Virus record (IMG/VR): IMGVR_UViG_3300045994_000147
Span: 1 to 64,000 of that record
Length of the DNA: 64,000 bases
Direction: 5' to 3' (one strand)
Source of the DNA: a virus
This document shows positions 3,718 through 51,537 of the stretch, in pieces (the stretch's first letter is position 1; the number at the start of each line of letters is the position of its first letter). The position numbers were made by a program, and so were the translations under genes. The notes beneath the pieces were generated by a model. That model made no database searches. It saw nothing but the letters and a program-made list of their open reading frames with translations, and had not been told where the DNA came from.

Positions 3718-4155
3718 ATGCAAGTAACACCTTGGAAAGAAGAAGAGAAGAAGAGTGATACGCTAGTCGGTGTATATGGCACCTTAAAGAGGGGTGAAGG
3801 CAATCATCGTTTATTGTCTACATCCGAATTAGTAACTACATCCCTAACTCCACCTAACTACGGTCTAGTTGATTTAGGCGCATTCCCTGGTCTAATCCCA
3901 GGAGAGGATAAGGTTGTCATTGAGGTATATAAGGTAAACAACCACACTCTATCTCGATTGGATTCATTGGAAGGTCATCCAACCTTCTATGAGAGGAAGG
4001 AGGTAGATGTTGTTGTCAATGGCAACACAGAGAAGGTGTGGGTATATCATCTTAATCGGCATAAAGACCTGGCCCCGTGGAATCTACGGGATGTTGATGG
4101 CAATATAACTTGGGGGAGACATACTCGTGATTTTTCTACAGAAATACAGGAATAG
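3718..4155 (+). CDS. Gamma-glutamylcyclotransferase-like protein
   Basis: Has the GGCT/AIG2-like fold signature: Tyr-Gly-Thr-Leu at residues 20-23 forms the substrate loop, and Glu85 in Leu-Asp-Ser-Leu-Glu-Gly sits where the catalytic glutamate lies in this family. Members release 5-oxoproline from gamma-glutamyl amines. The length (145 aa) is normal. AGGAG precedes the ATG. It overlaps the ATP-grasp gene, opening a cassette with two more amidoligases and a glutamine amidotransferase. In comparable phage clusters such enzymes are thought to trim or recycle gamma-glutamyl linkages made by the ligases. Confidence 0.85.
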   Translation: MQVTPWKEEEKKSDTLVGVYGTLKRGEGNHRLLSTSELVTTSLTPPNYGLVDLGAFPGLIPGEDKVVIEVYKVNNHTLSRLDSLEGHPTFYERKEVDVVVNGNTEKVWVYHLNRHKDLAPWNLRDVDGNITWGRHTRDFSTEIQE

Positions 4156-4909
4156 CACATCATCAGGTACTGATGTAGCTCAAGCTCTAGATCTACAAAT
4201 CTATACCCCAAACATTGTGCCTTCTCGTAGAAAGGCCGGCCTTATAATCAATTGGGGCATTGGGCATGTACCTTGGCTATACTCTACATCTCAAGCTATC
4301 AATCACCCCAATTACGTAAAGGTAGCTGCTAATAAGCTAAGCACATTCGATGTATTGAACGATGCCTCAATAGATATACCAAGCTATACCACAGCCAAAG
4401 AAGTGGCCTTAGAATGGATTAGAGGGGGCTTTAAGGTCATGTGTCGAACACTACTATCAGCATCTGCAGGTAGGGGTATTGTGGTAGCTAAGGAGGAGGA
4501 GGCTATAATTGATGCTCCTCTCTATGTCAAATATGTAGAGAAGCGTTATGAGTTCAGGGTGCATGTTGTCTTCAATAACGTAGTCAAAATACAACAAAAG
4601 CGTAGGCTCTCCTCTGAATCATTAGCTGAAAGGGGTATTGTAGAGCGTAATAAGTATATCCGTAACTTGGATAATGGTTATATTTTCTCTACTAATATTG
4701 ATGAGGGTTTAGGCGGTTTTATTGAAGAGATGGGAGATATATCCATCAGAGCTATTGGAGAATTAAATTTAAACTTCGGTGCAGTAGATATAATCATTGG
4801 AAGGATAGATGACAACCCCTATATCCTTGAGGTCAATACAGCCCCTGGGCTAGAGGGTAGTACTCTTCAGGCTTATGTAGATGCCTTTAGAGCCCACCTT
4901 TATAATTAG
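4127..4909 (+). CDS. ATP-grasp amide-bond ligase
   Basis: The C-terminal half carries ATP-grasp hallmarks: a Lys-Tyr-Val-Glu nucleotide-binding strand near residue 138, a following Arg-x-His pair, and the Mg-binding end Tyr-Ile-Leu-Glu-Val-Asn-Thr-Ala-Pro near 235-243. Such enzymes join a carboxylate to an amine through an acyl phosphate. The length (260 aa) fits small phage ATP-grasp ligases. It starts with GTG, preceded by GGGGAG, and overlaps the cyclotransferase gene by 29 bases, so the two are probably made together. The substrate is unknown; a peptide or protein end is plausible. Confidence 0.82.
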   Translation: MIFLQKYRNSTSSGTDVAQALDLQIYTPNIVPSRRKAGLIINWGIGHVPWLYSTSQAINHPNYVKVAANKLSTFDVLNDASIDIPSYTTAKEVALEWIRGGFKVMCRTLLSASAGRGIVVAKEEEAIIDAPLYVKYVEKRYEFRVHVVFNNVVKIQQKRRLSSESLAERGIVERNKYIRNLDNGYIFSTNIDEGLGGFIEEMGDISIRAIGELNLNFGAVDIIIGRIDDNPYILEVNTAPGLEGSTLQAYVDAFRAHLYN

Positions 4910-4919
4910 GAGGATACCT

Positions 4920-5252
4920 TTGGACGACATAACTATAGCTAGGAGGTATGCAGCTAAAGCAGATCAGGCCAGAGACAATGGCCATGAGTTCCTTTTATCT
5001 TTCAATGAGTATAAGAGGTTAGTAAAAAGGAAGAAGTGCTACTACACCTCTATCCCTTTCTTACAAGGTGATAAACAACTTGGCCTGTCTCTAGATAGAA
5101 TTGATAACAGTAAAGGTTATGTCTCAGGTAATGTAGTAGCCTGTCTAAAAACCATTAACACAATTAAGAGTAGTCTTGAGAACCCAAGTAACCCAATAGG
5201 TGTGAAGCACTTGAAGAGAATGTGTGATGCCCTCATTAAATTAGGAGTATAA
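4920..5252 (+). CDS. HNH-type homing endonuclease-like protein
   Basis: TTG at 4920 is chosen as start because AGGAGG lies six bases before it; this gives 110 aa. The middle contains Leu-Asp-Arg-Ile-Asp-Asn-Ser-Lys-Gly-Tyr followed by Gly-Asn-Val, the usual end of small phage HNH nucleases. The first metal-binding residue is replaced by Asp, so activity is uncertain. It stands free between amidation genes, as mobile HNH genes often do in phage genomes. Confidence 0.55.
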   Translation: MDDITIARRYAAKADQARDNGHEFLLSFNEYKRLVKRKKCYYTSIPFLQGDKQLGLSLDRIDNSKGYVSGNVVACLKTINTIKSSLENPSNPIGVKHLKRMCDALIKLGV

Positions 5253-5253
5253 G

Positions 5254-5595
5254 ATGTATAAAGCTAAAGTAGATCGTACTTGGATTGATAGCAGCGGGCT
5301 AGTGCTTGTACAGACTACGAAGGGCCCAGGATCCGAGCACCCTAAACCACACCCATTCGCTATTGTCAAGATTGGTGGTGTACAAGGATCCAATATTAAG
5401 TTCGAAGGTGTGAGGGAAGGTGATTTGTTAAGATGTGACTCCCTACCCTACATGTCCCGTCCTTCCCCTATTTACTCAAATGACTATAAGTACGAAACCT
5501 ATACTAAAGCTGGACGTAAGTTCATGAGGTCTAAAGCCTTATACTGGCCAGTGAAGTTACCCAATGGCTTTTGGGTGCTGAGGGAACAGCGATGA
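5254..5595 (+). CDS. Protein of unknown function (113 aa)
   Basis: AGGAG lies six bases before the ATG, just after the HNH gene stop. The product is basic, beta-rich by appearance, with many tyrosines and prolines, and has no membrane segment. No family recognised. Its place inside the amidation cassette may be coincidental. Confidence 0.6.
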   Translation: MYKAKVDRTWIDSSGLVLVQTTKGPGSEHPKPHPFAIVKIGGVQGSNIKFEGVREGDLLRCDSLPYMSRPSPIYSNDYKYETYTKAGRKFMRSKALYWPVKLPNGFWVLREQR

Positions 5596-5804
5596 ACATT
5601 ATAGAAGCTTACCTTTTAATAGGGTTAATAGTTGTTGTTGTAGATTTGGTGGTGTACTTAATGAAAGGGAGGGGTTTAATGGTTGGTGATATAGCGACTT
5701 ATGTTCTAGCTATCATTACATGGCCAGTATTTTTATTAGATTATTTAATTAAACTAATTAATGACAACAGGCACACAGTGGCGATCAAGGGGTGGAAGAA
5801 ATGA
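5592..5804 (+). CDS. Small membrane protein, paralogue 1 (70 aa)
   Basis: The ATG at 5592 overlaps the previous stop and has GAGGGA upstream, so it is preferred over a longer frame. Two hydrophobic segments lie at about residues 5-25 and 38-57. It resembles the following gene along its length (shared Tyr-Leu-Leu-Ile-Gly start and Trp-Pro in the second segment), so the pair looks like a tandem duplication. Function unknown. Confidence 0.6.
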   Translation: MNIIEAYLLIGLIVVVVDLVVYLMKGRGLMVGDIATYVLAIITWPVFLLDYLIKLINDNRHTVAIKGWKK

Positions 5805-6034
5805 ATCCTATTATAATCTATCTACTAATAGGGGCTGCATTAGCCACACTCCTCCAGTTGTACATAGGCGGCGGCTTAAAGGTTAAGGAGGTGTTTTTGT
5901 TTATTGCATGCGCCCTCATTTGGCCTTTGCTGCTATTCGTTGCAGTCTATTTAGGAGTGTTTGAGGGTGTAATTTACCTTTATAATACTTACGGAAACGC
6001 CTACCTTATCAACCCAAAAAAGGACGAAGAATGA
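5801..6034 (+). CDS. Small membrane protein, paralogue 2 (77 aa)
   Basis: The start overlaps the previous stop as ATGA. Hydrophobic segments lie at about residues 4-24 and 32-54, followed by a polar tail. The N-terminal Tyr-Leu-Leu-Ile-Gly and the central Trp-Pro match the upstream gene, supporting duplication. Function unknown; both would sit in the host inner membrane. Confidence 0.6.
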   Translation: MNPIIIYLLIGAALATLLQLYIGGGLKVKEVFLFIACALIWPLLLFVAVYLGVFEGVIYLYNTYGNAYLINPKKDEE

Positions 6035-6180
6035 AGGTAATATCTTATTTACTATGGCTTTTACCGGGTATTTGGCTACAAAAGCACGGTATATCGGTAC
6101 TATCATGGGACTATTGGTTATTGGTGCTACTGATAATCTTATTAACATCAACAGAAGTATACAGAACTCGCGGGTTCTGA
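6031..6180 (+). CDS. Small membrane protein (49 aa)
   Basis: A short complete frame overlaps the previous stop (ATGA). It has two hydrophobic stretches, residues 4-18 and 25-40, and a basic tail. It is the third membrane microprotein in a row. No family recognised; coupling and hydrophobic pattern are the only support. Confidence 0.5.
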   Translation: MKVISYLLWLLPGIWLQKHGISVLSWDYWLLVLLIILLTSTEVYRTRGF

Positions 6181-6219
6181 ATTTAATTTAAAGTATTTAA
6201 AATACTAGGGGTATATATT

Positions 6220-7032
6220 ATGAGCAATAAGTTTTTTATGGTTGGTTCAGATCCTGAGGGATTTCTGAGAGATAGAGAGAATAGATTGGTGAGTGCCATT
6301 GGAGTAGTACCCGGTAGTAAGAGTGACCCATTTAAAACTAAACACGGCTCTATTCAGCACGATAATATTCTAGCTGAATTCAATAGCATCCCTGCTGCAT
6401 CCCTTCATGATTTCATCAACAATCATCGGTTAATCATAAGGGATTTGGAGGAGGTATTATCTCCATTAAACTTAAAGTTAGACTTCTCTGCAAGTGCTGT
6501 AGCAGATCAAGGACTACTATCAGATCCGTTGGCCATTAGAGCTGGGTGTGAGCCAGACTACAATGCATGGACTCTCTCTGAGAACATCCCACCAGATTAC
6601 ATCACAACTAATACCAGAGCTGCTGGTGGCCACTTACACATCTCCTTCGATCAGGCCGTTAACTCTCCTGAAAATCGTGTAAAATTCGTTAAAGCTCTTG
6701 ACTTGGTATTAGGGGTTCCATCGGTTATTTTCGATGGAGACAAAGAACGACGTAAGTTATACGGTAAAGCTGGTGCCTTTCGTCCTAAAGATACCAACAA
6801 TTCTGATCCTTATGATGGTGTCGAGTACCGTACTCTCTCCAACTTCTGGCTTCGTAGCAATGAACTGATGTCCTTTGTGTACCAAGGGGTTGAGGAGGTC
6901 TATAACAACTTAGACTCCCTCTCTGATAAAGCTGAGTACTTCAAGGCAGATATCTTAAAGGCCATAGGTTCAGGGAGTAAAAACAAAGCCATTATCTTAT
7001 GTAAAGAGGCAGGTATCAACTATGCGATTTGA
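6220..7032 (+). CDS. Phage COOH-NH2 ligase, type 2 (phiEco32-like)
   Basis: A 270-aa enzyme of the glutamine-synthetase-like amidoligase superfamily. Visible signatures are Gly-Ser-Asp-Pro-Glu-Gly at 9-14, His-Asp-Asn with Glu-Phe-Asn at 47-55, Ala-Gly-Gly-His-Leu-His-Ile at 135-141 and Val-Glu-Tyr-Arg near 201-204. These supply metal and phosphate ligands in the family. The reaction expected is ATP-dependent joining of a carboxylate to an amine. The last 11 bases overlap the next gene, and the cassette also holds Amidoligase_2 and a glutamine amidotransferase, which would supply ammonia or remove glutamine. Confidence 0.85.
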   Translation: MSNKFFMVGSDPEGFLRDRENRLVSAIGVVPGSKSDPFKTKHGSIQHDNILAEFNSIPAASLHDFINNHRLIIRDLEEVLSPLNLKLDFSASAVADQGLLSDPLAIRAGCEPDYNAWTLSENIPPDYITTNTRAAGGHLHISFDQAVNSPENRVKFVKALDLVLGVPSVIFDGDKERRKLYGKAGAFRPKDTNNSDPYDGVEYRTLSNFWLRSNELMSFVYQGVEEVYNNLDSLSDKAEYFKADILKAIGSGSKNKAIILCKEAGINYAI

Positions 7033-8803
7033 TCAGATACGAGAACTTGAAGTCTCGGACTTTTCCCCACAGGATCTACGACTCTTCTCGAACCAGAGGG
7101 AACTAGATCTTCGTAGGTACTTTAACTTTAACGATGAAGTTATCTCCGCTATTTCATCAGTAACTAGGCCGCAGGCAGTTGCTATGTCACATTTGGTTTG
7201 TGATATAATTAACACAGCTTCCAGTCACTATAGGGCTTACTTAGGTAGTATAAACTACTCTAATGTTGATATTGTAAGAAGATTATTCATTAAGTTGGAC
7301 AATATTGCCCGACCTGATGGGGTGATGTCTTTAAAGCGCAGTATCATGCAAAGTATGAGTGCTGATGGGATTCTATATGCTATCACTAGATACTCGCCTG
7401 TGGAATTAGTGATAATGGGTGTAGTTCCAATTGATATGATAACTTGTTTAAGACGCCAATTCAGAGGTGCATCGCCTAGAATTCAGCTTGAATATATGGA
7501 TTCAATTGGATTCTTGGATCGACACTATCAATCTAGTGTAGAATCAACTGAACAGCAGCGTATGGTAGAATCATCACTCGGTGTATTGGATGAAGTAGAA
7601 GTAAGTGATGTACTTGATTCATCTATATACTCAGTAAGATCGACGCCAAGGACATTTGATTGGGGCGATGCTCTTAGAAATGTATCTGTACAAGCTACAA
7701 GTGGCGGGCCTGATTCATTAATCCGACCACCCAATCCTGTCAGACTATCGCCCCAACCAGAAGACGTGGGCCCCATAAATCCTTGGATCCCTTGGAGTGG
7801 TGGTACTTGCCCAGTACCTGTGGGAATTATGATTGTCTATAAAATAAATGGTAGTGACAGGATTAACGGGCCTACTACCAGCGAAATTTTAAGATGGAGT
7901 CATACAGGCGGTGATGGGGATATTAACTCCTACAGTGTAGTAAGGAGGCCCACAGGAGGATGGATCCCTTGGGGCGGCGGGGCAAGACCAGTACCTGCTA
8001 ACATCAAGGTGTACTATAAGACTGGTGCTGGAGGCATGCGTGGCCCAAGAGAAGCTAGAGGTCTACGTTGGGATCATGTTGGCTCTGATTCAGATATCTT
8101 AGAATACAAAGTATTCATAGAAGAATTAATCTCTCTAGCTGAAGCACCTGAGCCTTATACCAGAGAGTATACCGAAACACAAGATGATCTAATTAAGAAG
8201 TATTCAGATTGTTTTGCTCGGTACAACGGTTACACCGTGAAGATCCTTGGGTTCACTAGAAGCAAACATGCAGAAGTGGCTAGACTGGATAGTGATGAGC
8301 CTATAATCACTGTCTCCGACCTTAGCCTATTGGATCATACCTTCCCTAAGGTAGGATACATTAACAATGGTATGACAGCTACATTTGTACAGCGCCTCCA
8401 TAAGAGAGGTAGTGACAGGTACAAGAAAGGAATTCATCCAAGCACATTCAAGTATACAGATACATGTGTGCTTGAGATGAGCAGGGCTCGATTGTCTTAT
8501 GATAGACGGAGTATTATGCATAACCTCCTATATCCAGTGTTCCCTGAGTACAATGAGGCCATAGAGAGTCTGTTAGCGTATGAGAAGCTATCAATAGCCC
8601 TCTCCTCCTCTATCTGTATTAGTATATCAGCTCGATTGGGTAGGATTATTCTTGAGAAGAACTGTAAGATAATTGGGTACTACAACGTAAAGAAGAAATC
8701 GTTTATAACCTATACCGACCTCTTTAATAAAGACTTGGACAAATTAGGTATTAAATACACATTCAAACAAATAAAGAAATTGGAGGGTTTATGTCAAGAG
8801 TAG
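7022..8803 (+). CDS. 593-aa protein with a duplicated Trp-rich module
   Basis: Not recognised as a whole. Two copies of a module of about 50 residues lie in the centre: 255-307 and 314-365, each starting Trp-Ile-Pro-Trp-x-Gly-Gly, continuing with Pro-Val-Pro and ending with an Arg-Trp-x-His and Asp-Ile-x-x-Tyr motif. Similar short modules occur singly in other phage proteins of unknown role. The flanking halves (1-200 and 390-593) are helical, without signal or membrane segments. It overlaps both neighbouring amidoligase genes, so it is probably a partner, for example the substrate or scaffold of the modification. Confidence 0.7.
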   Translation: MRFDQIRELEVSDFSPQDLRLFSNQRELDLRRYFNFNDEVISAISSVTRPQAVAMSHLVCDIINTASSHYRAYLGSINYSNVDIVRRLFIKLDNIARPDGVMSLKRSIMQSMSADGILYAITRYSPVELVIMGVVPIDMITCLRRQFRGASPRIQLEYMDSIGFLDRHYQSSVESTEQQRMVESSLGVLDEVEVSDVLDSSIYSVRSTPRTFDWGDALRNVSVQATSGGPDSLIRPPNPVRLSPQPEDVGPINPWIPWSGGTCPVPVGIMIVYKINGSDRINGPTTSEILRWSHTGGDGDINSYSVVRRPTGGWIPWGGGARPVPANIKVYYKTGAGGMRGPREARGLRWDHVGSDSDILEYKVFIEELISLAEAPEPYTREYTETQDDLIKKYSDCFARYNGYTVKILGFTRSKHAEVARLDSDEPIITVSDLSLLDHTFPKVGYINNGMTATFVQRLHKRGSDRYKKGIHPSTFKYTDTCVLEMSRARLSYDRRSIMHNLLYPVFPEYNEAIESLLAYEKLSIALSSSICISISARLGRIILEKNCKIIGYYNVKKKSFITYTDLFNKDLDKLGIKYTFKQIKKLEGLCQE

Positions 8804-9702
8804 ACAATTATGGCGTAGAAATAGAGGCCGAAGGTATTAGGTATGACTTCAATGATTCCAAAAACATCCACAATGGGCGGTTCTTTGAGTTAGATGTACC
8901 TGAAACCCAATCACTCTCTCATTGGTCTGCGGTTAAAGATGGATCATTGAGGAATGGGGTTGAGTTTATCTTTAAGGGGCCTAAGTCATACGCAGCTTCT
9001 ATCAAGGCTTTAGAGCAGATACAGTCACTATTTGATCTAGCAGCCCAACAGGAAAAACCAATTATACTGAGCGATAGATGCAGTGTGCATGTTCACTTAG
9101 ATTGCAGAGAGTTAACAAAAAATGAGGTAGTTAACTTTATATTCTGTTATCTACTAATTGAGAGAATACTCTTTAACTGTGTTGATATATTCCGTCAAAA
9201 GAATACCTACTGTAGGCCATTGAATGATTCGGTATTTTCTGGCATCCTGATGGAGCTACTAAGGGTTAGTAGTGAAGAACAAAGATCCATCTATAACTAT
9301 ATCACTAGAAGTTGTGATAAGTACTCCGCCTTAAACCTATTACCTCTAACTTCATACGGTTCAATTGAGTTCAGGCACCATCAGGGCACAACCAATACCG
9401 CCGATATTATTAAGTGGATTGATTTGATAAGGGCTTTGAAAGATACTGCCCTCTCATCAGATATACTTGACTTATTGAATATCTATGATACACTTGGTTA
9501 CAGGTCACTACTATCACACATTTTCCCTGATCGGCCGGACTTAATAGATTTACCTAACTCTTCGGACTTAGTGTATAGTGGGGTTGTTGGTGTCAGAGAG
9601 ATACTGTTAGCTGATAAGTTAAGAGATATCAATTCAGTGGTTAGAAGAGATAATAAATCGGATATGTTTGAACAATTCTTAAAAGCTAAAGGGAGAGTAT
9701 AA
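8791..9702 (+). CDS. Amidoligase_2 family enzyme (303 aa)
   Basis: Shows the second type of glutamine-synthetase-like amidoligase: Gly-Val-Glu-Ile-Glu at 8-12, Asp-Gly-Ser-Leu at 50-53 followed by Glu58, Val-His-Val-His at 99-102 and Gly-Ser-Ile-Glu-Phe-Arg-His-His at 190-197. The glutamates, histidines and arginine form the metal and ATP site in the family. The start overlaps the 593-aa gene by 13 bases, and the stop is directly followed by the amidotransferase gene. With two further ligases nearby the phage encodes three unrelated or distantly related amide-forming enzymes. Confidence 0.85.
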   Translation: MSRVDNYGVEIEAEGIRYDFNDSKNIHNGRFFELDVPETQSLSHWSAVKDGSLRNGVEFIFKGPKSYAASIKALEQIQSLFDLAAQQEKPIILSDRCSVHVHLDCRELTKNEVVNFIFCYLLIERILFNCVDIFRQKNTYCRPLNDSVFSGILMELLRVSSEEQRSIYNYITRSCDKYSALNLLPLTSYGSIEFRHHQGTTNTADIIKWIDLIRALKDTALSSDILDLLNIYDTLGYRSLLSHIFPDRPDLIDLPNSSDLVYSGVVGVREILLADKLRDINSVVRRDNKSDMFEQFLKAKGRV

Positions 9703-9703
9703 A

Positions 9704-10990
9704 ATGTGTGGATTAGTCGGTGCAATAACCCGGTCAAACAAACGTGCTGATTTCGATCTGGTCAGTAAGTTTGTAGAACAAGCTCTATATTGTGATACCC
9801 TCCGGGGTGCTCATGGTACTGGTCTGCTATCAGTGACTACCCAAGGGGTTGTCGAGGTGCACAAGAGAGCTCTATCAGGCCCAGATTTTCTGGAGTTAAG
9901 TAAAACAAAGTCAATGTTGAATTCATTTTCTAATGATATTTTCATTGGTCACAATCGGTTTGCAACACAAGGAGCACGCTCAAATGAAAACAGTCATCCA
10001 TTCTCGCATGACCACATTCATCTATTCCATAACGGAACACTTAAATCGCATCGCACTCTATCTTCAAGAGTTTTTGATGTTGATTCAGAAGCTATAGCCC
10101 ACCTACTATCAGAATCCGACAATGTAAAAGCATCTTTAGAGAAGATAGAAGGTGCTTATTCTCTCGTTTGGTATAATGAAGAGGATGATACAATAAACTT
10201 TGCTAGAAATGAAGAGAGGCCAATGTATTTTGGTGATATCGCGGATGGCAAGGGCTTATTATTCGCAAGCGAAGGCGGCATGGTATCTTGGTTAGCTAGT
10301 AGAAATGGAATTAAACTAGATAAGATATACGCCACTGAAGTAGGAAGTTGGATATCTATTAACTTAGATGCCTCTAAGAAAGCTAAGGTCACTAAATTCA
10401 CTCCTAAAGAAGCAGTGAGCTATACCAACTTCTACAATAGAGGTACAGCTGCTACTGTACACAGAACAACCGAAGGCCCTTCCGATCCTATTATTGTAAC
10501 GCCTACAGCATGGTTCCCTTATAACCCACAAGCAAACCATCCTTATGGTAAGCTGGTAGCAACTTATCTACACAAGGGTGTAGTATATGACGTGAACATT
10601 AGCGGTATAGATCGAGAGGAAGCTAAGCAGTATATAGGTAAGAAGGTACGGGTCAAGATAGGCACTTGTTCTCTAAAGGAGATATATGGGCCTTTGGACA
10701 AGAATCAAGATAACTTAGAATCAACTGGGCTAGTGGTCGTTGAGACCGGAAAAAAGTCAGGGGTAAAAAGGCTAAAAAACGCTTTCGGTAAACCTGTAGA
10801 TGCATGGGAATTTGGAAGGTTAGTTAAAAATGGGTGTAAAGTTTGTAGCGGTATTATTTTACCAGAAGATTATGATGACGTAATCTTCGATTTCAGCGGG
10901 GATCCTTTATGTGAGGATTGCGCTAAGGATGAAGATAAAGCATTTGACGTAGCTTATTATCAAACAGTAACTAACCACGGATCACATTAA
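9704..10990 (+). CDS. Class II glutamine amidotransferase with zinc ribbon
   Basis: Begins Met-Cys-Gly-Leu, so removal of Met exposes the Cys2 nucleophile of Ntn-type glutaminases. Arg-Gly-Ala-His-Gly-Thr-Gly (34-40), Gly-His-Asn-Arg-Phe-Ala-Thr (82-88) and His-Asn-Gly (109-111) are the glutamine-binding and oxyanion motifs. The domain ends near 240. A unique region follows, with Cys378, Cys381, Cys403 and Cys406 forming a likely zinc ribbon. It should split glutamine and pass ammonia or a glutaminyl group to a partner; no synthase domain is fused, so the partner is probably one of the neighbouring ligases. Confidence 0.87.
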   Translation: MCGLVGAITRSNKRADFDLVSKFVEQALYCDTLRGAHGTGLLSVTTQGVVEVHKRALSGPDFLELSKTKSMLNSFSNDIFIGHNRFATQGARSNENSHPFSHDHIHLFHNGTLKSHRTLSSRVFDVDSEAIAHLLSESDNVKASLEKIEGAYSLVWYNEEDDTINFARNEERPMYFGDIADGKGLLFASEGGMVSWLASRNGIKLDKIYATEVGSWISINLDASKKAKVTKFTPKEAVSYTNFYNRGTAATVHRTTEGPSDPIIVTPTAWFPYNPQANHPYGKLVATYLHKGVVYDVNISGIDREEAKQYIGKKVRVKIGTCSLKEIYGPLDKNQDNLESTGLVVVETGKKSGVKRLKNAFGKPVDAWEFGRLVKNGCKVCSGIILPEDYDDVIFDFSGDPLCEDCAKDEDKAFDVAYYQTVTNHGSH

Positions 10991-14087: not shown

Positions 14088-14403
14088 AAATGATGGGATT
14101 ATAGTACGGCAACTCTTCTTACTCATTGAGAAAGAGAAGTATGATAAGCGTCTATTGGATCTACTATCAGAAACTGTAGATAAATCTTGGTATCAAGACT
14201 CTTGTGGCGGAGGGGACACAAGTTTACACATACAATTCAAGAACGGTATACAAGCAGCCATCTTTAAGAACTTAGACCACAATAATCTATACCTATCCGA
14301 TGAGTTATTCTATATGGACAGTGAGACATCAGACTCTAAGATCTCTGATGATCGGCTGTTATTGTATCTTAATAATATAGGACAATATAAATATGGTCAC
14401 TAA
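14077..14403 (+). CDS. Protein of unknown function (108 aa)
   Basis: AAGGAA before the ATG supports the start. The product is acidic, has a glycine-cysteine-glycine-glycine turn near residue 46 and no membrane segment. The last base overlaps the exonuclease gene start (TAATG), indicating coupled translation with the polymerase-associated exonuclease. Family unknown. Confidence 0.6.
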   Translation: MTIRNDGIIVRQLFLLIEKEKYDKRLLDLLSETVDKSWYQDSCGGGDTSLHIQFKNGIQAAIFKNLDHNNLYLSDELFYMDSETSDSKISDDRLLLYLNNIGQYKYGH

Positions 14404-14942
14404 TGTACAAAAGTGAGGTGGTATGGGACTTAGAGGCTAATGGTCTCATAAAAGACTCAACTGAGGTCTGGTGTATATCTTTAAAAGATATAACAAATGG
14501 CCAGAAGTTTAATCTAAATGGTAGTAACCTTACTAGGAGAGAGGTACTACGCCATTTTGAAGGGGTTACCAATATCATAGGACACAATATCATAGCGTTC
14601 GATATACCAATGATTAAGAAGTTCTATGACATTGATTTAATTGAACTTTTAGGTAGAGATAAGATAACTGATACCCTCCTTTGGAGTCAAGTGCTCTACC
14701 CAGATCGACCAATGCCAAGGGGCTGTCCTACTTCCATAACCAACCCAGTCACTAAGAAGTCCAAGAAGATTGGGCCTCATGGCTTGGAGGCATGGGGATA
14801 TAGGGTCGGCCATAAGAAGATAGAGATACACGACTGGTTAACATACACACCTGATATATTAGATAGATGCGATGTTGACGTTGACATTAATGAATTAGTT
14901 TACTATGAGCTTCTAAAGGAAGCGGGGATAAGATGTGATTAA
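14403..14942 (+). CDS. 3'-5' exonuclease: separate proofreading domain of a T7-type DNA polymerase
   Basis: A DnaQ-fold proofreading domain. Asp9 and Glu11 in Trp-Asp-Leu-Glu-Ala-Asn form ExoI; His61-Asn with Asp67 is ExoII; the Cys-Asp-Val-Asp-Val-Asp stretch near 155-160 is ExoIII. A T7-like His-Gly-Leu-Glu-Ala-Trp-Gly-Tyr segment lies between them. In T7 the same domain forms residues 1-190 of gp5; here it ends just where the polymerase domain would begin. That domain is encoded 3.6 kb downstream (18532 onward). The two proteins probably assemble at the fork. The end overlaps the PRPP synthetase start. Confidence 0.88.
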   Translation: MYKSEVVWDLEANGLIKDSTEVWCISLKDITNGQKFNLNGSNLTRREVLRHFEGVTNIIGHNIIAFDIPMIKKFYDIDLIELLGRDKITDTLLWSQVLYPDRPMPRGCPTSITNPVTKKSKKIGPHGLEAWGYRVGHKKIEIHDWLTYTPDILDRCDVDVDINELVYYELLKEAGIRCD

Positions 14943-15768
14943 GATATATTACCCAAATGGGGAAGAGGAAGAGGTAGGTGGTACTACTTTCACAGGTGGT
15001 GAAGAGCACATTAACCTAAAGAAGAGGGTACTTGTTAGCAACTGGCCTATACTGATAACAGCTAGAAGTGTGACATCCTCTGAGATAATTAGAATACTAC
15101 TAGTAACTGATGCCCTTAGAAGGTACTACCCAAACGACATCAACCTCTCCTTACCTTACCTACCATATGCTCGTCAGGATAGAGCGTGTAATGAGGGTGA
15201 TGCATTTAGCCTAGAGGTCTTCGCTAATATCATAAACTCACAGAACTATAAGACAATCTTTACTATAGATACCCATAGTCCTGTAGCCGCTAAGTTAATA
15301 AGAAACTTACATGTTAACCCTGCTGATCAAAGCGTTGTATCTATACCTACTTATTATGATTACTTTGTAGCCCCAGATAAAGGTGCTGTAAGTAGAGTAG
15401 AGAGTTGTGCAGCCTTATGGAACTTACGGTATCATAATAACCCAGTGGGAATTGTTACTGGTACTAAAACTAGAGATGTTACCAATGGTAATTTAGTATA
15501 TGACCCATTAGTTTGCCCTGATCTAACCGGAAAGAAGTGCCTAATAGTTGACGATATTTGTGATGGAGGTATGACATTTATCCTATTGGCTAAAGAATTA
15601 AAGAGGAAGGGTGCAGAATCAATAGATCTGTATGTATCTCATGGTATATTTAGTAGAGGTACTGAAGTTCTATGGGAAGCTGGTATAGATAAGATATACA
15701 CAACAGACTCTATATACAATAGAGCTCGTCAACTTAACAATGTAACAGTAATAATAGCATCACTATGA
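14935..15768 (+). CDS. prs: PRPP synthetase family pyrophosphokinase
   Basis: Family signatures: Leu-Pro-Tyr-Ala-Arg-Gln-Asp-Arg (76-83), Ile-Asp-Thr-His (111-114) and the ribose-phosphate loop Val-Asp-Asp-Ile-Cys-Asp-Gly-Gly-Met-Thr (205-214). At 277 aa it is shorter than cellular enzymes (about 315). It starts with GTG inside the exonuclease gene and overlaps the NAMPT gene by four bases. Classical members make PRPP from ribose 5-phosphate. In the phage NARP1 pathway a homologue pyrophosphorylates ADP-ribose instead and an NAMPT-like partner adds nicotinamide to rebuild NAD. Sequence alone cannot tell which substrate is used. Confidence 0.88.
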   Translation: MIKIYYPNGEEEEVGGTTFTGGEEHINLKKRVLVSNWPILITARSVTSSEIIRILLVTDALRRYYPNDINLSLPYLPYARQDRACNEGDAFSLEVFANIINSQNYKTIFTIDTHSPVAAKLIRNLHVNPADQSVVSIPTYYDYFVAPDKGAVSRVESCAALWNLRYHNNPVGIVTGTKTRDVTNGNLVYDPLVCPDLTGKKCLIVDDICDGGMTFILLAKELKRKGAESIDLYVSHGIFSRGTEVLWEAGIDKIYTTDSIYNRARQLNNVTVIIASL

Positions 15769-17228
15769 GCCCAATAAACCACAAAGACGCATATAAAATC
15801 GGACACATCAATCAATATCCTACTGGTACTACTGAAGTCTACTCTAACTTTACAGCACGATCAGGTAAGTTATCTAATGTACCTGGATCTACAGGTATCT
15901 ATTTTGTAGGCTTACAACACTTCCTCAAATCCTATCTAATTGATGATTGGAATAATAACTTCTTCCTTAAACCTAAAGAGGAGGTATTACGGAAGTATAA
16001 GAGAAGAGTCTCCAATATCTTAGGGTACGATGTAAATGTAGATCACATTGGCTCCCTGCATGATTTAGGGTTCTTACCTGTAAGAATTAAATCATTACCA
16101 GAGGGCACATTCGTACCTTATGGCGTCCCTATGTTAACTATTAAGAACACTATCCCAGAGTTCTATTGGGTTACTAACATGTTAGAGAGTGTTCTTTCCT
16201 CTGAATTGTGGCAACCTATTACTTCAGCTACCACCTATATGGCTTACAGAAAGATCTGTGAGAAGTATGCTGATATGACAGGTGTTGATAGAGGGTTTGT
16301 AGGATATCAGACCCATGACTTCTCCTTTAGAGGTATGCCGGGTAAGGAGCCAGCAGCTAAGTCTGGGGCAGCTGTGTTAGCTATGGGTTGTTTAGGTACT
16401 GATTGTGTTAGTGCTATTGATCTATTGGAAGATTACTATGAAGCTGATTCAGATAAGGAAGTAATTGGACAATCAGTTAATGCCACCGAACATAGTGTAA
16501 TGTGCTCAGGTGGTAAGGAAGAGGAGTTAGATACTTATAAGCGGCTATTGACAGAAGTGTATCCTAGTGGTATAGTGGCTATAGTTAGCGACACATGGGA
16601 CTTCTGGAATGTAGTAACTAATACCTTACCTGCCTTAAAAGATATCATCTTAGGTAGAGATGGCAAATTAGTTATTAGACCTGACTCCGGTAATCCAGTG
16701 GATATTGTTTGTGGTAGTGTAGATGCTGGTAGTGTAGCAGAAGCTAAGGGTCTTATCGAGTGTTTATGGGATACCTTTGGTGGTACTATAAATGATAAAG
16801 GTTATAAGGTTTTAGATAGTCACATTGGAGCTATCTATGGAGAAGCAATTACCCTCCAAAGGGCTGAAGAGATATTGAGTAAGCTTGAGGCTAAGGGCTT
16901 TGCCTCCTCTAATATCGTATTTGGTGTTGGTTCTTACACCTACCAAATGGTTACTCGTGATACTCACGGTATGGCTATGAAGAGTACTAATGTTGTAATC
17001 AATGGTAAGAGTACACCTATCTTTAAAGATCCTAAGACAGATGGCGGTTTAAAGAAGAGTGCTAAGGGGCTATTATATGTTACCTCAGAAAAGGGTGTAC
17101 TGAAATTAGTGGATGAAGCTAGTAGACAAGAAGAGAAATACGGTTTACTCCAAACAACGTTTTGTAACAGCTTATTATTTAACGAAACAACTTTAAAAAG
17201 AATAAGAGGAGTAGTAAATGACCAATAA
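15765..17228 (+). CDS. nadV: Nicotinamide phosphoribosyltransferase family enzyme
   Basis: A full-length (487 aa) type II phosphoribosyltransferase. Residues matching the human enzyme include the N-terminal Asp-Ala-Tyr-Lys (8-11), Phe186 and Arg189 in His-Asp-Phe-Ser-Phe-Arg-Gly, His243 in Thr-Glu-His-Ser, and Arg305/Asp307 in Ile-Arg-Pro-Asp-Ser-Gly-Asn-Pro. It would form NMN from nicotinamide and PRPP, or NAD directly if the donor is the ADP-ribose pyrophosphate of NARP1. It is coupled to the synthetase gene, and no NMN adenylyltransferase is visible in the window, which favours the second option. NAD rebuilding counters NAD-depleting defences. Confidence 0.9.
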   Translation: MSPINHKDAYKIGHINQYPTGTTEVYSNFTARSGKLSNVPGSTGIYFVGLQHFLKSYLIDDWNNNFFLKPKEEVLRKYKRRVSNILGYDVNVDHIGSLHDLGFLPVRIKSLPEGTFVPYGVPMLTIKNTIPEFYWVTNMLESVLSSELWQPITSATTYMAYRKICEKYADMTGVDRGFVGYQTHDFSFRGMPGKEPAAKSGAAVLAMGCLGTDCVSAIDLLEDYYEADSDKEVIGQSVNATEHSVMCSGGKEEELDTYKRLLTEVYPSGIVAIVSDTWDFWNVVTNTLPALKDIILGRDGKLVIRPDSGNPVDIVCGSVDAGSVAEAKGLIECLWDTFGGTINDKGYKVLDSHIGAIYGEAITLQRAEEILSKLEAKGFASSNIVFGVGSYTYQMVTRDTHGMAMKSTNVVINGKSTPIFKDPKTDGGLKKSAKGLLYVTSEKGVLKLVDEASRQEEKYGLLQTTFCNSLLFNETTLKRIRGVVNDQ

Positions 17229-18255
17229 ACATTACAGATACCACTCAATCAAACAGTTTAGAGAAGTATACAAGCAAGTACAGAAAGACACAGCATTCGT
17301 AGGGTTCGGTGATAATGGTGATCCAATAGAAGATTGGCATAAACCACTGCCAATATTAACTTTCACTGGATCTGAGAAGTTGCATGGGACTAATGCAGCC
17401 ATCGGGATTAATAGTGATGGAACCTTCTGGGTACAGAGTAGAGAGAGGATTATTACTCCAGAGTCAGATAATGCTGGATTCGCCCAGTGGGTGTATGGGA
17501 ATACAGCTTTAGTTGTTAGTTTATATAATAGGTTATTTGATGCTTACCTTAAAAGCTCGGATGTTAAGGTTATAGTATACGGAGAGTGGTGTGGGGCTAA
17601 CATACAACCACAAGTGGCTTTATCTAAATTACCTAAAATGTTCGTAGTGTTCGATATTAAGTGGGTAGTTGGTGATGAGGAAGGTTGGGTGGGTCATGAA
17701 GAGATTAAAGGTGCCATGGCTGGATTATTACATACTGTCTATGATTTCCCTACATACTCAATCACCATCGACTTCGATAACCCCGATGATTCCGTTAATG
17801 AGCTTATTAGAATCACAGATAAAATTGAGTCTTGTAGCCCATTGGCTAAAGAATTGGGGGCATTGGGCATAGGGGAGGGAGCGGTATGGAAATGTGGTGA
17901 TTACATCTTTAAGGTAAAAGGTAAGCTACACTCAGCATCACATACCAAACAATTAGTAGGTATTGATGTAGAGAGAGTAGCTACAATTAAGGAGTGTGTT
18001 GATAGGATTGTTAGTGAGAACCGATTGAAGCAAGGGGTTGATGAACTAATAGCTAATGGCATCGCTATTGATAATAAGGCGATCAAACCATTCATCGACT
18101 GGGTTAAGAATGATTGTATCAAAGAGGAGATGGATGTAATAGTTGAATCAGGATTAGAAGTAAAGGATACTATTAAATTCATTAGTGACAGGGCTAAGAC
18201 CTATTTTATTGAAGAAGTATTGAGGAAATTAGATGACAAAAGTAAATTTATATGA
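17218..18255 (+). CDS. RNA ligase (T4 Rnl2-like)
   Basis: Lys54 in Glu-Lys-Leu-His-Gly-Thr-Asn is the nucleotide-accepting lysine of motif I. Ser-Arg-Glu-Arg (motif Ia), Tyr-Gly-Glu-Trp-Cys-Gly (motif III), Gly-Glu-Gly-Ala-Val-Trp-Lys (motif IV) and Phe-Lys-Val-Lys-Gly (motif V) follow in the normal order. The length (345 aa) equals that of T4 Rnl2. It seals nicked RNA using ATP, probably repairing tRNA cut by host defence nucleases. It overlaps the NAMPT gene by 11 bases. No polynucleotide kinase is visible nearby. Confidence 0.9.
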   Translation: MTNKHYRYHSIKQFREVYKQVQKDTAFVGFGDNGDPIEDWHKPLPILTFTGSEKLHGTNAAIGINSDGTFWVQSRERIITPESDNAGFAQWVYGNTALVVSLYNRLFDAYLKSSDVKVIVYGEWCGANIQPQVALSKLPKMFVVFDIKWVVGDEEGWVGHEEIKGAMAGLLHTVYDFPTYSITIDFDNPDDSVNELIRITDKIESCSPLAKELGALGIGEGAVWKCGDYIFKVKGKLHSASHTKQLVGIDVERVATIKECVDRIVSENRLKQGVDELIANGIAIDNKAIKPFIDWVKNDCIKEEMDVIVESGLEVKDTIKFISDRAKTYFIEEVLRKLDDKSKFI

Positions 18256-18436
18256 TGTTCCAAGAAGATCTTTCATTAAAGTACAATGTGAGAATGGCGA
18301 GGCTGTCATTAGGTTTAATAGATTAGATGGAGCCTACTCATATTGTGTTACTAAAGATGGAGGTGTACTACATCTAAGTGCATCCGCGCCAGTGGAAATT
18401 GTATCTAAACCGGAGGATTGGGGTGACAATAATTGA
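18233..18436 (+). CDS. Small protein of unknown function (67 aa)
   Basis: The start lies inside the end of the RNA ligase gene. The product looks beta-rich with a basic N-terminal half and an acidic, Trp-containing C terminus. No family recognised. Overlap with both neighbours suggests translation as part of the ligase unit. Confidence 0.55.
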   Translation: MTKVNLYDVPRRSFIKVQCENGEAVIRFNRLDGAYSYCVTKDGGVLHLSASAPVEIVSKPEDWGDNN

Positions 18437-18539
18437 TTTTTTACATATACATGCAGATGGTCTGGGGTTTCTAATAGCATTTGTAGCTACTATCAGATCC
18501 CTTCAGGCAGTATTTGTAACAGCTATTAATAGTGGCTAA
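18423..18539 (+). CDS. Hydrophobic microprotein (38 aa)
   Basis: A GTG start preceded by GGAGG opens a 38-codon frame that bridges the 67-aa gene and the polymerase gene, overlapping both (the polymerase GTG start is at 18532). Residues 14-33 are hydrophobic. It may serve mainly to couple translation into the polymerase gene. It contains one copy of the repeated word CTACTATCAG in a different reading frame from most other copies. Confidence 0.4.
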   Translation: MTIIDFLHIHADGLGFLIAFVATIRSLQAVFVTAINSG

Positions 18540-19402
18540 GATAGAGTGGGTAGAGGCTTTAGAGCTGGAGAGAGATGTCTCTATCCTAATAAGAGAACAA
18601 GAGAGAAGTGGTATATACTTTGATCTAGGTAAAGCCCACTATTTCGTATCTCTCCTAGAGAGGATGAAGGCTGAGAAGTATGCTCTTATTAGGCCGCATT
18701 TAAACTATGAAGTCATCATAAAAGAGAGTAAGGACAAGAGAGAAGACAGTGAAGATGAATACAATTTTGTTAGAAGCATTAGGCTTAAAAACGGTCAATA
18801 CTCTGCTCCAGTTATTAATTGGTATACTGATCCTACAATCGTTGACGGGCCATTTAGTCGTATCACCATTGAGGAACCTTCGATCTCAAAGCGTGGCCTC
18901 ATTATTAACCAACTCCTAAAGTACGGATGGAAACCTGATCTATTTACTGAGAAAGGCTTCCCTAAGTTAACTGAGAAAGGAGAACCTGTAGATACCCTAG
19001 AGAAGGTAGGGGACTTTGGTAAAGACCTGAGCTTGTGGTATGTATATAACCATAGGCAATCACAGATCAAAGGGTTCCTGAAGCATGTTGATGGTAGAAG
19101 TAGAATATCAGCACAGATGAATACCTGTGGTACCAATACCTTCAGGGCAGCCCATAAGGTTGTGGCTAATATACCTAGGCCAACATCAGTCTTCGGTAAG
19201 GAGATGAGGTCTCTTTTCTCTGTTGGCGAGGGTAGGAAGTTTGTTGGTGCTGATCTATCTGGTTTAGAATTGAGAATGTTGGCTCACCATATGAATGATG
19301 ATGAGTATATAGAGCAGATTCTAACAAGTGATATACATCTCTACAACTTAAGTATGGGATCTCCTTTCTTAACTACCAGAGATCAAGCTAAGACATTCAT
19401 CT
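18532..19402 (+). CDS. DNA polymerase (T7/family A), polymerase domain, exon 1
   Basis: Encodes residues 1-290 and the first base of codon 291 of a family A polymerase without exonuclease domain. The start aligns with the T7 gp5 region right after its exonuclease domain. Motif A (Asp241-Leu-Ser-Gly-Leu-Glu-Leu-Arg) carries the first catalytic aspartate. Motif B starts Arg283-Asp-Gln-Ala-Lys287-Thr-Phe-Ile. The frame then meets TGA, the first bases of a group I intron. Start codon is GTG. Joined to exon 2 it gives 453 aa; with the separate exonuclease (179 aa) the total approaches T7 gp5 (704). Confidence 0.9.
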
Positions 19403-20155
19403 GAACTAACGGATGACTTGGGAGTAATCCCTCGATTAAAACTCATTGAATTCAGGGGAACTCTTTATAAGACAATCCTGAGCTAAGCTAAAAAGTTAAT
19501 TAGACATTCAGGTTTATAAGATTGTGCCGATATGTATTATGATTTTAATATAATTAGGAAAACTATGGTAACTTATATATCTGGAAATAAACCACAATCT
19601 GAAATGACATCTACTCCAAGTAAATACCCACAAGGTTATTTCAAAGAGAAGCGTTGTAAAGAGTGTGGTAGCATTTTTAAACCTGAAGCCCCTAGCCACA
19701 TCTATTGCTCTCAAGGGTGTGTAGATATAGGGACAACCTCTGCATACCTAAAGCGTAATTATAATATAGATAGCAAAGAGTATAATAGATTATACCATAA
19801 TCAAAATGGATTGTGTGCTATTTGTAATGAACCTGGCTTTACTATGGCAAAACATCATAAAGTAAAGATAGTTGTGGATCACTGTCATACTACTGGTGCT
19901 ATTAGGGGATTACTATGTCATAATTGTAATAGAGCACTTGGGCTATTAAAAGATGATATTAATGTAATTAAAAATGCAATTAACTATTTAGAAAGTGCAA
20001 CGACTATCCCTTCGGGGAGTACATCACAAGTTAATGGTGATGGAAGCGGTGAGCACCTAGGTAACTAGGTTGATGATATAGTCTATTCTGTATAGAGATA
20101 TGCAGCAGTTCATAAGAGAACGGGTTATGCCTTACGAGCATGATTGAATATAAAG
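19403..20155 (+). other. Group I intron in the DNA polymerase gene
   Basis: Exon 1 ends in T and the intron ends in G, as group I introns require. The six exon bases TCATCT (19397-19402) pair with the guide GGATGA at 19411-19416, with the obligatory T-G wobble at the splice site. Core sequences resembling the T4 td intron follow: CAGGGGAACTC, GACAATCCTGAGC. A GATATAGTCT element lies near 20075 before the 3' end. Splicing gives Phe-Ile-Tyr-Met-Phe-Val-Tyr-Gly, matching T7 gp5 across the junction. Length 753 bases, with an HNH endonuclease gene inside. Confidence 0.9.
19565..20068 (+). CDS. Intron-encoded HNH endonuclease (endonuclease VII-like)
   Basis: The ATG at 19565 has AGGA six bases upstream and is preferred over one 33 bases earlier; the product is 167 aa. 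An N-terminal Cys-x2-Cys zinc finger pair (Lys-Glu-Cys-Gly, then Tyr-Cys-Ser-Gln-Gly-Cys) precedes the endonuclease VII-type core: Cys-Ala-Ile-Cys, Val-Asp-His-Cys-His, Gly-Leu-Leu-Cys-His-Asn-Cys-Asn. It should cut intronless polymerase alleles and so spread the intron. Its 3' end reaches into the likely P6-P9 region of the ribozyme. Confidence 0.88.
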   Translation: MVTYISGNKPQSEMTSTPSKYPQGYFKEKRCKECGSIFKPEAPSHIYCSQGCVDIGTTSAYLKRNYNIDSKEYNRLYHNQNGLCAICNEPGFTMAKHHKVKIVVDHCHTTGAIRGLLCHNCNRALGLLKDDINVIKNAINYLESATTIPSGSTSQVNGDGSGEHLGN

Positions 20156-20646
20156 ATATGTTTGTATATGGAGGTGGAGATGAGAAAGCAGGTAAAGTTA
20201 TCAATGGAAATAGATCCAAAGGTAAGTCCCTAAAAGAGAAGTTTTTATCCTCTCTACCAGCGTTAGACAAGCTTATTAACAAGTGTAAAGCCTTTGCTAA
20301 GAGTCATGGGTGGCTGCCTGCTATTGATGGTAGAAAGATCTATGTTCGATCGTTTGAAGGTAAGATACTAGAGCACACAGCCCTTAATTGTCTATTACAA
20401 GCTAATGGTTCCATAATAGCTAAGAGGGCTATGGTAATAGCTAATAGAGAAGTAAAGAAAAGAGGATTAGATGCCTTTCAGATCTTATTCTATCATGATG
20501 AGTTTGCTTATGATTCTGCCGAGTCTTGTGCAGAGGAAGTAGGGAATATTCTAATTGATTCTATGAAGCTGGCAGGTGAATATTATAACTTAAAGATACC
20601 TATCTCTGGAGAGTATGGTATTGGTAATGATTGGAGTATACATTAA
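20156..20646 (+). CDS. DNA polymerase (T7/family A), polymerase domain, exon 2
   Basis: Continues the polymerase from the split codon of Tyr291. It contains Tyr-Gly-Gly-Gly-Asp-Glu-Lys (T7: Tyr-Gly-Ala-Gly-Asp-Glu-Lys), the Gly-Arg-Lys thumb/palm segment and motif C, Tyr-His404-Asp405-Glu-Phe, with the second catalytic aspartate. It ends at TAA 20644-20646. An in-frame ATG at 20140 lies in the intron and is not a real start. Confidence 0.9.
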
Positions 20647-50154: not shown

Positions 50155-50175
50155 GATACCCTCTTAGGTAAGTAA

Positions 50176-50211
50176 CCCCCAGTGGTGCGCTTCATAGAGA
50201 GGCGTAGGGGG
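50176..50211 (-). terminator. Weak terminator or processing hairpin after the capsid gene
   Basis: CCCCC (50176-50180) and GGGGG (50207-50211) form a GC-rich stem, with a GCG/CGC pair inside, just after the capsid gene stop on the minus strand. No T-run follows, so it may cause partial termination or protect the 3' end of capsid mRNA. Confidence 0.45.
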
Positions 50212-50222
50212 TGTTGTTAGAT

Positions 50223-51323
50223 TTAGATAGCGTGGTCGATTGCTAATACACCGAAGTCTTCTGTGCTCTTATCATAGATAGAGTAGAATACTGGTTTCAA
50301 GAAACCGAACATTTTATCAATGTTAATACCAGGAGAAGAATCATAGTTGAACCATTTTTCTGACCACTCAGGAGCACCTAAGTCAGCGAAGCCTAAGGCT
50401 TGTGAGCCACAGACTAAAGCACGAGCACCATCAATAGTACCAAGAGCTCCCCATTTAGAGCCAGAAGCAGCGCCTTTAGTATTATAAACTAAACGATGTT
50501 CATGGAACACTAAACCATCAACAGTCAAGATTCCGCCTTCGAAGAAAGGGTTAGTCTTTCCACGATCAGCACCAGTCACAACAGCTCTTTGGTAATCTTG
50601 ATCTTTCTTAAGTTGAGCTAAACCTTCTGGACGAATGAAGCAAACATAGTACTCTTTACCACCAGCATTCAAAGGTTTGATGTAATGGGTTTTAGCATAA
50701 ACTACGATATCAACAATAGCTTTGTAGGTAAGAGTATCAGTAGCTAACATAGTAGAAGGGCTGCCTGCAATCAATGCGCCATTAGCACCATCCCAACGTC
50801 TCCATCTTTTAGTAGAAGGAGCAGTTACGCTAGAGGCGAATGCCAATGAAGCGAATGCACCAGAGGTACGAGGAGAACCATCGTTGTTGAAAGCGTAAGA
50901 CACACCTGACAAAGTTAAGAAAGCCAGTTGATCCATACGGTTTGCTAACCAGAAAGACAATCTTTCTTTAGCATTTTCACGGAAGGAAACAACAGTCTTT
51001 TGTTCTGCCAATTTACCTTTTTGACGTAGACCGTGAGAGATCAAGTCAATGGTAATCTTGGTGTTGTAAGTCTTCATTTCTTCTTCGTTGTTTTCGCGTT
51101 CGTTATCACCAACGACACCATCTTCAACCAAGTCAGCTAACAGGTGCATGATAACCTGTTCGCCTTTTTCTGTTTTAGTTAACTCAGTGATACGTTGTAC
51201 AACAGAATCGCTTGAGCCTACGAATTTATTAATGAAAGTCAAGTCACGAGCTGCTTTCCACAGATCTTTTGACCAGACTAGTTTTTGATCTGCTGTTAAG
51301 GCAGCAAAGTTAGTTAATGCCAT
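50223..51323 (-). CDS. Major capsid protein (N4-gp56 family)
   Basis: 366 aa with the N4-gp56-type pattern: N-terminal Ala-Leu-Thr-Asn-Phe, Lys-Asp-Leu-Trp-Lys-Ala-Ala, Phe-Ile-Asn-Lys-Phe, then Lys-Gly-Glu-Gln-Val and Gly-Asn-Glu, and further on an Arg-Met-Asp-Gln-Leu segment. It forms the HK97-fold shell. The gene follows the scaffold gene and a tRNA gene and has codons richer in G and C than its neighbours, as expected for the most abundant protein. No prohead protease seen nearby. Confidence 0.88.
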   Translation of the reverse strand: MALTNFAALTADQKLVWSKDLWKAARDLTFINKFVGSSDSVVQRITELTKTEKGEQVIMHLLADLVEDGVVGDNERENNEEEMKTYNTKITIDLISHGLRQKGKLAEQKTVVSFRENAKERLSFWLANRMDQLAFLTLSGVSYAFNNDGSPRTSGAFASLAFASSVTAPSTKRWRRWDGANGALIAGSPSTMLATDTLTYKAIVDIVVYAKTHYIKPLNAGGKEYYVCFIRPEGLAQLKKDQDYQRAVVTGADRGKTNPFFEGGILTVDGLVFHEHRLVYNTKGAASGSKWGALGTIDGARALVCGSQALGFADLGAPEWSEKWFNYDSSPGINIDKMFGFLKPVFYSIYDKSTEDFGVLAIDHAI

Positions 51324-51444: not shown

Positions 51445-51537
51445 TGGTGGGAGCACTTGGAGTCGAACCAAGAATGTTTACCCTGAGGGATCGGATTTAC
51501 AGTCCGATGTAGAACACGCCTTATCTACAATACTCTC
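51445..51537 (-). tRNA. tRNA-Tyr (GUA anticodon)
   Basis: Minus strand. Acceptor GAGAGTA/TGCTCCC has one A-C mismatch. The D stem is GTAGA/TCTAC, the anticodon stem TCGGA/TCCGA with loop CTGTAAA (anticodon GTA), a long variable arm contains the CCC-TCA-GGG hairpin, and the T stem is CTTGG/CCAAG with loop TTCGACT. CCA is encoded. The long variable arm and GUA anticodon both fit bacterial tyrosine tRNA. It lies between the scaffold and capsid genes within the late transcript. Confidence 0.9.

Follow-up and report, generated by a model that had tools for sequence, protein, structure and literature searches.

The DNA stretch analyzed here (the window) comprises 64,000 nucleotides, positions 1 to 64,000 of the IMG/VR record IMGVR_UViG_3300045994_000147, and covers most of this 66.9-kb phage record. 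Its T7-type DNA polymerase is encoded by two separate genes, one for the 3′-5′ proofreading exonuclease (exo) and one for the polymerase domain (pol), and further genes lie at the junction between them. Within the group of phages to which the window belongs, the split is inherited and the genes filling the junction are not. We regard it as likely that a split at the exo/pol linker was passed on from an ancestor of the group and that each descendant later acquired different genes there; in the window phage these would be a NARP1 pair for repair of nicotinamide adenine dinucleotide (NAD+) and an Rnl2-type RNA ligase, together with a group I intron in pol.

The group (the window group) consists of four genomes: the window phage, the podovirus ctwe8250 (MW202615) and the IMG/VR contigs G001 and G002. 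Their capsid, portal and terminase proteins are 75-85% identical. A stand-alone exo gene, a small open reading frame (ORF) designated ORF A and a pol gene are present in all four, and ORF A is the only junction gene that they have in common. The distance from exo to pol is 194 bp in ctwe8250, 676 bp in G002, 1756 bp in G001 and 3589 bp in the window. The ctwe8250 junction contains ORF A alone. In G002, ORF A is accompanied by ORFs of 59 and 61 amino acids (aa), and in G001 by an 87-aa ORF, an RNA ligase gene of the phrog_968 family and a 58-aa ORF, the 87-aa ORF preceding ORF A and the other two following it. The window junction contains a Prs-like gene, a Nampt-like gene, the Rnl2-type RNA ligase gene and ORF A. 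The RNA ligases of the window and G001 belong to different families and lie on opposite sides of ORF A, and therefore look like separate arrivals. A preliminary description of the window had suggested that relatives might carry other cargo at the same border, and this is the case, since all four junctions differ. It had also named a common split with common cargo in all relatives as the sign of an ancient fixed arrangement; the split is present in 4/4 close genomes, but no cargo is shared. Thus, ctwe8250, G001 and G002 resemble the window in phage group, split and ORF A, and differ from it in lacking NARP1 (no Nampt gene was found in any of them), in carrying other cargo or none and in having a pol gene without an intron. 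Because independently found relatives have the same split, it is neither a chance event nor an assembly error.

The split polymerase and its probable intron

The features of the locus are as follows.

14403-14942 (+): stand-alone T7-type 3′-5′ proofreading exonuclease, 179 aa (phrog_17, DNA polymerase, E 1.6e-26; T7 gp5 exo profile, E 5e-12)
14935-15768 (+): Prs-like gene with a GTG start, probably encoding Adps (ADP-ribose pyrophosphate synthetase), 277 aa (phrog_619, E 2e-75; Pribosyltran)
15765-17228 (+): Namat/Nampt-like gene, 487 aa (phrog_448, E 1e-189)
17218-18255 (+): Rnl2-type RNA ligase, 345 aa (PF09414, 61.6 bits, cut-off 27)
18233-18436 (+): ORF A, encoding a small protein of 67 aa predicted to be all-beta (homologues occupy the equivalent junction of the relatives)
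18378-18539 (+): possible small ORF of 53 aa, or of 38 aa if it begins at 18423 (open frame alone)
18532-19402 (+): first exon of the polymerase domain, starting with GTG and containing motif A (DNA_pol_A, 38.5 bits; alignment with intact relatives)
19403-20155 (+): group I intron of 753 bp that interrupts motif B of the polymerase, AKTFI-Y (Rfam Intron_gpI; exon junction placed by comparison with relatives)
19532-20068 (+): ORF inside the intron, of endonuclease VII type and probably a homing endonuclease (PF02945, E 2e-23; phrog_2633, E 2e-31)
20156-20646 (+): second exon of the polymerase domain, with motif C (HDE) (DNA_pol_A, 69.9 bits; alignment)

The exo-to-pol region is flanked by a primase/helicase gene on one side and by a gene for a protein resembling single-stranded DNA-binding protein on the other. 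From exo through ORF A the genes lie on a single strand and overlap head to tail by 4-23 bp, as in an operon. Promoter-like sites in the junction are as numerous as in shuffled sequences; terminator-like sites slightly exceed the shuffles, and none of them delimits a separate unit. The preliminary description counted two small genes here. One of them, ORF A, is conserved; the second (18378 or 18423 to 18539) has no family match and no conservation was seen.

The division of the proofreading and polymerase domains at the T7 gp5 domain border is borne out by the profile matches and by a structural alignment. In alignments with relatives, the exo gene retains its acidic catalytic residues (DxE, the middle Asp and the final Asp) and motifs A, B and C of the polymerase are intact. 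The spliced polymerase of 453 aa matches T7 gp5 in a profile search with E 1e-46. The polymerase of G001 (L004), an intact relative without the intron, shares 60-65% identity with the window and G002 polymerases, and its AlphaFold model has a predicted local distance difference test score (pLDDT) of 89. Residues 3-450 of this model align to residues 207-704 of T7 gp5 (Z ~35), which places the start of the split polymerase at about T7 residue 205, in the gp5 interdomain linker. The stretch near residues 61-110, which was checked for the thioredoxin-binding insertion, is of low confidence in the model.

The polymerase had been described as lying in three pieces, with an intron cutting the polymerase domain. 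The intron is supported: the cut corresponds to a group I intron that is predicted to be spliceable, so that the enzyme would consist of two polypeptides after splicing. Joining the end of exon 1 (ATCT, 19402) to the start of exon 2 (ATATG, 20156) gives AKTFIYMFVYGGGDEK, which matches AKTFIYMFIYGGGDEK of an intact relative. The 5′ exon ends with U, the intron ends with G, and a P1-type pairing (UCAUCU/GGAUGA) can be formed. Matches to Rfam Intron_gpI are found at 19935-20105 (E 2e-7, 36.1 bits) and 19393-19594 (E 8e-4, 24.5 bits), both below the gathering threshold of 50, and the intron ORF sits between these two halves. The published intron sites in phage family A polymerases correspond to Escherichia coli residues 674, 676 and 881 (PMC3428280); the window intron lies near residue 762 according to our own alignment. 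Like the group I introns in the polymerase genes of SPO1, Pf-WMP3, phiL7 and W31, it carries an endonuclease ORF within a conserved polymerase region (PMC3428280). It differs from them in its motif B site and in the endonuclease VII type of its ORF. A catalytic motif of this type is reported for the homing endonuclease F-CphI (PMC6083498).

Motif B is also interrupted in a Kuravirus contig (L142 4252-5025) and in the Aeromonas phage BUCT695 (L146 16356-17132), both of which have split polymerases. The interruptions in these two and in the window lie at different nucleotide positions, giving three insertion points within ~20 nt of coding sequence.

The putative NAD+-repair pair and the other junction genes

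The Prs-like and Nampt-like genes are adjacent with a 4-bp overlap, an adjacency also found in ICP1 and ctKR88. In the NARP1 pathway, Adps produces ADP-ribose pyrophosphate (ADPR-PP) and Namat joins nicotinamide to it, which yields NAD+ (PMC12774641). The Nampt-like protein of the window scores 531 bits against its best PDB match, 9w5x, and ~230 bits against classical Nampt entries. Entry 9w5x is itself titled Nampt; it is probably the phage Namat of PMC12774641, because the residues named in that paper are present in it. Under the Namat signature rule taken from the same paper, the window signature GSYTYQMVTRD has the length of a Namat signature and the spacing GSX(6)TRD, with Tyr at position 3 and Met at position 7. 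The residue at the SpbetaL1 Arg40 loop position is Lys in our reading of the alignment, and Lys is listed as an alternative there (PMC12774641). The two genes are most simply regarded as a putative NARP1 pair, which would remake NAD+ from ADP-ribose and nicotinamide after the action of NAD+-depleting defences. This agrees with the NAD-repair function originally suggested for the inserted genes. Compared with NARP1, the window has Met at clamp position 7 and carries the pair between two polymerase genes, and its activity is a prediction.

Alternatively, the pair might perform ordinary salvage, in which Prs and Nampt act on phosphoribosyl pyrophosphate (PRPP) and the resulting nicotinamide mononucleotide is adenylylated by the host. 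The protein families indeed annotate both genes as Prs and Nampt, Met replaces Tyr at signature position 7, and Namat accepts PRPP as well in vitro (PMC12774641). However, the Namat spacing of the signature, the far higher score against 9w5x than against classical Nampt entries and the adjacency matching described NARP1 operons make ordinary salvage improbable.

The Kuravirus-like genome G004 (L156 2805-6257) likewise has a gene with the Namat signature and a Prs-like one; small ORFs separate the two, and they lie outside its exo-pol interval. Inside that 8.5-kb interval, at L155 4675-5226, a macro-domain-like protein is encoded that falls below the Pfam cut-off and is possibly related to ADP-ribose. 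No macro domain was found in the window group, and the search of the window cargo for known defence families returned only weak matches, to the phosphoribosyltransferase domain.

The RNA ligase contains the nucleotidyltransferase motif KxxG as K54-L-H-G, along with motifs IV and V (EGAVWK, KVK), as is typical of the Rnl2 type, and has no sequence match among solved structures. A role of the inserted genes in the repair of RNA cleavage had been suggested. A complete tRNA repair pair would consist of an RNA ligase and Pnkp. An Rnl2-type ligase is present, but no end-healing Pnkp-type kinase was detected in the genome of the window phage (G000) by the AAA_33 search, which did not include the phosphatase half and which a divergent kinase could escape. 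The RNA-repair reading is therefore incomplete.

The AlphaFold2 model of ORF A (pLDDT 86) consists mainly of strands and has no significant PDB match, and weak relatives of ORF A in other phages are located away from polymerase genes. The idea that ORF A is a polymerase-specific adaptor, for which its synteny speaks, was rejected on these grounds. Any role assigned to ORF A would be putative.

Origin of the split

Kuravirus-like phages and their near relatives are stated to encode polymerase and exonuclease separately as a rule (PMC9965538); in the OM43 phages the polymerase is split at a different place (PMC10580990). Papers already cited here made up most of what a literature search on fission of T7-type polymerases returned. 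Polymerases from viral contigs at 34-39% identity are mostly fused, and an exonuclease profile search of viral contigs returned few split relatives. A uracil-DNA glycosylase gene lies between exo and pol in L082, HNH-like or small genes do so in the LUZ24-like contigs (L117, L122, L123) and Clew-6, and a 54-aa spacer in L118. In L109, L128 and cyanophage S-TIP37 the exo and pol ORFs overlap; in single metagenome cases such overlaps may be sequencing errors, and several isolate cyanophages also have separate exo and pol pieces. The junctions of phiEco32 (8 kb), BUCT695 (6 kb) and G004 (~8.5 kb) are large. The Kuravirus-like phages (phiEco32, YF01) and the Grimontviridae (BUCT695) share with the window the separate genes for polymerase and 3′-5′ exonuclease and the order helicase-exo-X-pol. 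They differ in their 6-8 kb junctions, which hold other genes, among them those of nucleotide metabolism, in a polymerase that is not sister to that of the window group, and in a Nampt gene located outside the junction (G004).

A tree of 45 polymerase domains requires four changes between the split and fused states (4-5 in bootstrap replicates). A single clade of all split polymerases was rejected with p 5.7e-7, and the joining of the window clade with the Kuravirus/LUZ24-like clade with p 4e-4, both values being optimistic because the groups were named after a first tree had been viewed. On the former result, the idea that the split arose once and defines a clade was discarded. In the exonuclease tree, split proteins are scattered among fused ones with 8-9 changes, and the window clade is again not joined with the Kuravirus/LUZ24-like clade. 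Split polymerases are thus not monophyletic.

It is nevertheless conceivable that the gene broke only once, long ago, in a common ancestor of all the lineages concerned, and that re-fusions and a build-up of cargo followed. The helicase-exo-X-pol order is common to Kuravirus, Grimontviridae, the Clew-6/LUZ24-like phages and the window group, and parsimony permits one gain and several losses of the split. Several precise in-frame re-fusions would be needed, however, some of them across intervening genes, and the split is scattered among fused forms in both gene trees. We consider such a history unlikely.

Less likely still is a break caused by a homing endonuclease gene that entered the linker and subsequently disappeared or gave way to other genes, as in the nrdA gene and possibly gene 43 of T4-like phages. 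Fission of this kind is documented there (PMC2988022), and HNH-like genes are present in the junctions of LUZ24-like relatives and G004. No nuclease was recognized between exo and pol in the four genomes of the window group, though, and the overlapping-ORF states suggest that a simple frameshift or deletion in the linker suffices. The split gene 43 (43A/43B) of T4-like phages and the split nrdA of Aeh1 are parallels to the window in that an enzyme is made as two polypeptides. Their reassembly is documented, and the halves of the T4-type gp43 were co-purified and active (PMC2988022). They differ in that a family B polymerase or a reductase is concerned and that the split is tied to homing endonucleases or an intercistronic sequence.

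The border, other features of the window and the proposed history

The exo/pol border had been proposed to be an insertion site for anti-defence cargo. Length variation was compared over 18 gene junctions in the four window-group genomes, and the exo-to-ORF A part ranked second. Exo-pol distances span 3.4 kb, junction 23766>26583 has a larger range of 4.1 kb, and several other junctions vary by ~1 kb or more. Elsewhere the cargo is mostly nucleotide metabolism, uracil-DNA glycosylase/DNA repair, HNH-like genes or nucleases, and small ORFs without assigned function. A hot spot that specifically attracts and keeps anti-defence cassettes, which the rank of the border, NARP1 and RNA ligase in the window, the other RNA ligase in G001 and the weak macro-like protein in G004 would favour, is very unlikely given the other variable junctions, the predominance of cargo unrelated to anti-defence, the Nampt gene of the split-polymerase phage G004 outside the exo-pol interval (~17 kb from exo) and the lack of any recognized integrase, transposase or nuclease in the junctions of the window, ctwe8250, G001 and G002. 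The proposal of a dedicated site is thus unsupported. What is supported is a split border that accretes genes, and the data agree with genes accumulating in the ordinary way at a border that owes its existence to the split of the polymerase gene.

Features outside this locus were also recorded. A match to the Rfam abiF RNA (50175-50211, minus strand, 40.4 bits, gathering threshold 37) adjoins the capsid gene at 50223-51323; its occurrence in a phage is curious because the family takes its name from AbiF, an abortive-infection system. A tRNA-Tyr gene (51445-51537, minus strand) separates the capsid gene from the structural gene next to it. The 593-aa protein encoded at 7022-8803 contains two similar segments, WIPWSGGTCPVPV and WIPWGGGARPVPA, and has no Pfam match; its best-matching ORFs in ctwe8250, G001 and G002 are far shorter (~230-350 aa). 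At 3718-10990 lies a phiEco32-like cluster of gamma-glutamyl cyclotransferase, ATP-grasp, COOH-NH2 ligase, amidoligase and glutamine amidotransferase genes, which is conserved in 4/4 genomes.

We propose that, in an ancestor of the window group, the gene for a T7-type polymerase broke at the exo-pol linker. The exo and pol proteins most likely cooperate, with proofreading in trans, and may associate physically. The break would have left an ordinary intergenic junction within an operon of overlapping genes, at which different genes were then gained in each descendant. The window phage would have gained the NARP1 pair and the Rnl2-type RNA ligase at this junction, and a group I intron, not present in the relatives, would have entered motif B, so that splicing would be required for an active polymerase. 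Some observations weigh against parts of this history. The G+C content of the cargo equals that of the remaining window, so composition gives no sign of a recent arrival and was discarded as an indicator of it; the intron ORF alone is AT-rich (0.34 as compared with 0.39 for the window). Signature position 7 is Met in the window and Tyr in ICP1, ctKR88 and G004, which makes the specificity for ADPR-PP uncertain. Parsimony on both trees fits repeated fission and fission with re-fusions alike.

Each of the elements, namely split polymerases, NARP1 and polymerase introns, is already known, and it is their combination that is new. As a speculative generalization, the T7-type exo/pol linker might be a recurrent breakpoint at which independent breaks occur in many phage lineages. 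The halves would reassemble, in the window group perhaps with the help of ORF A, and fitness genes, up to entire NAD+-repair pathways, would enter the resulting slot in the replication operon time and again. The fused polymerases, overlapping ORFs, small spacers and cargo of 0.2-8 kb form a graded natural series, which allows one to ask how a replicative polymerase tolerates proofreading that is parted from synthesis. The series also shows how phage operons gain accessory genes after a protein domain border has turned into a gene border, and the window locus places a NARP1-type pair inside a replication operon in a little-known group of podoviruses.

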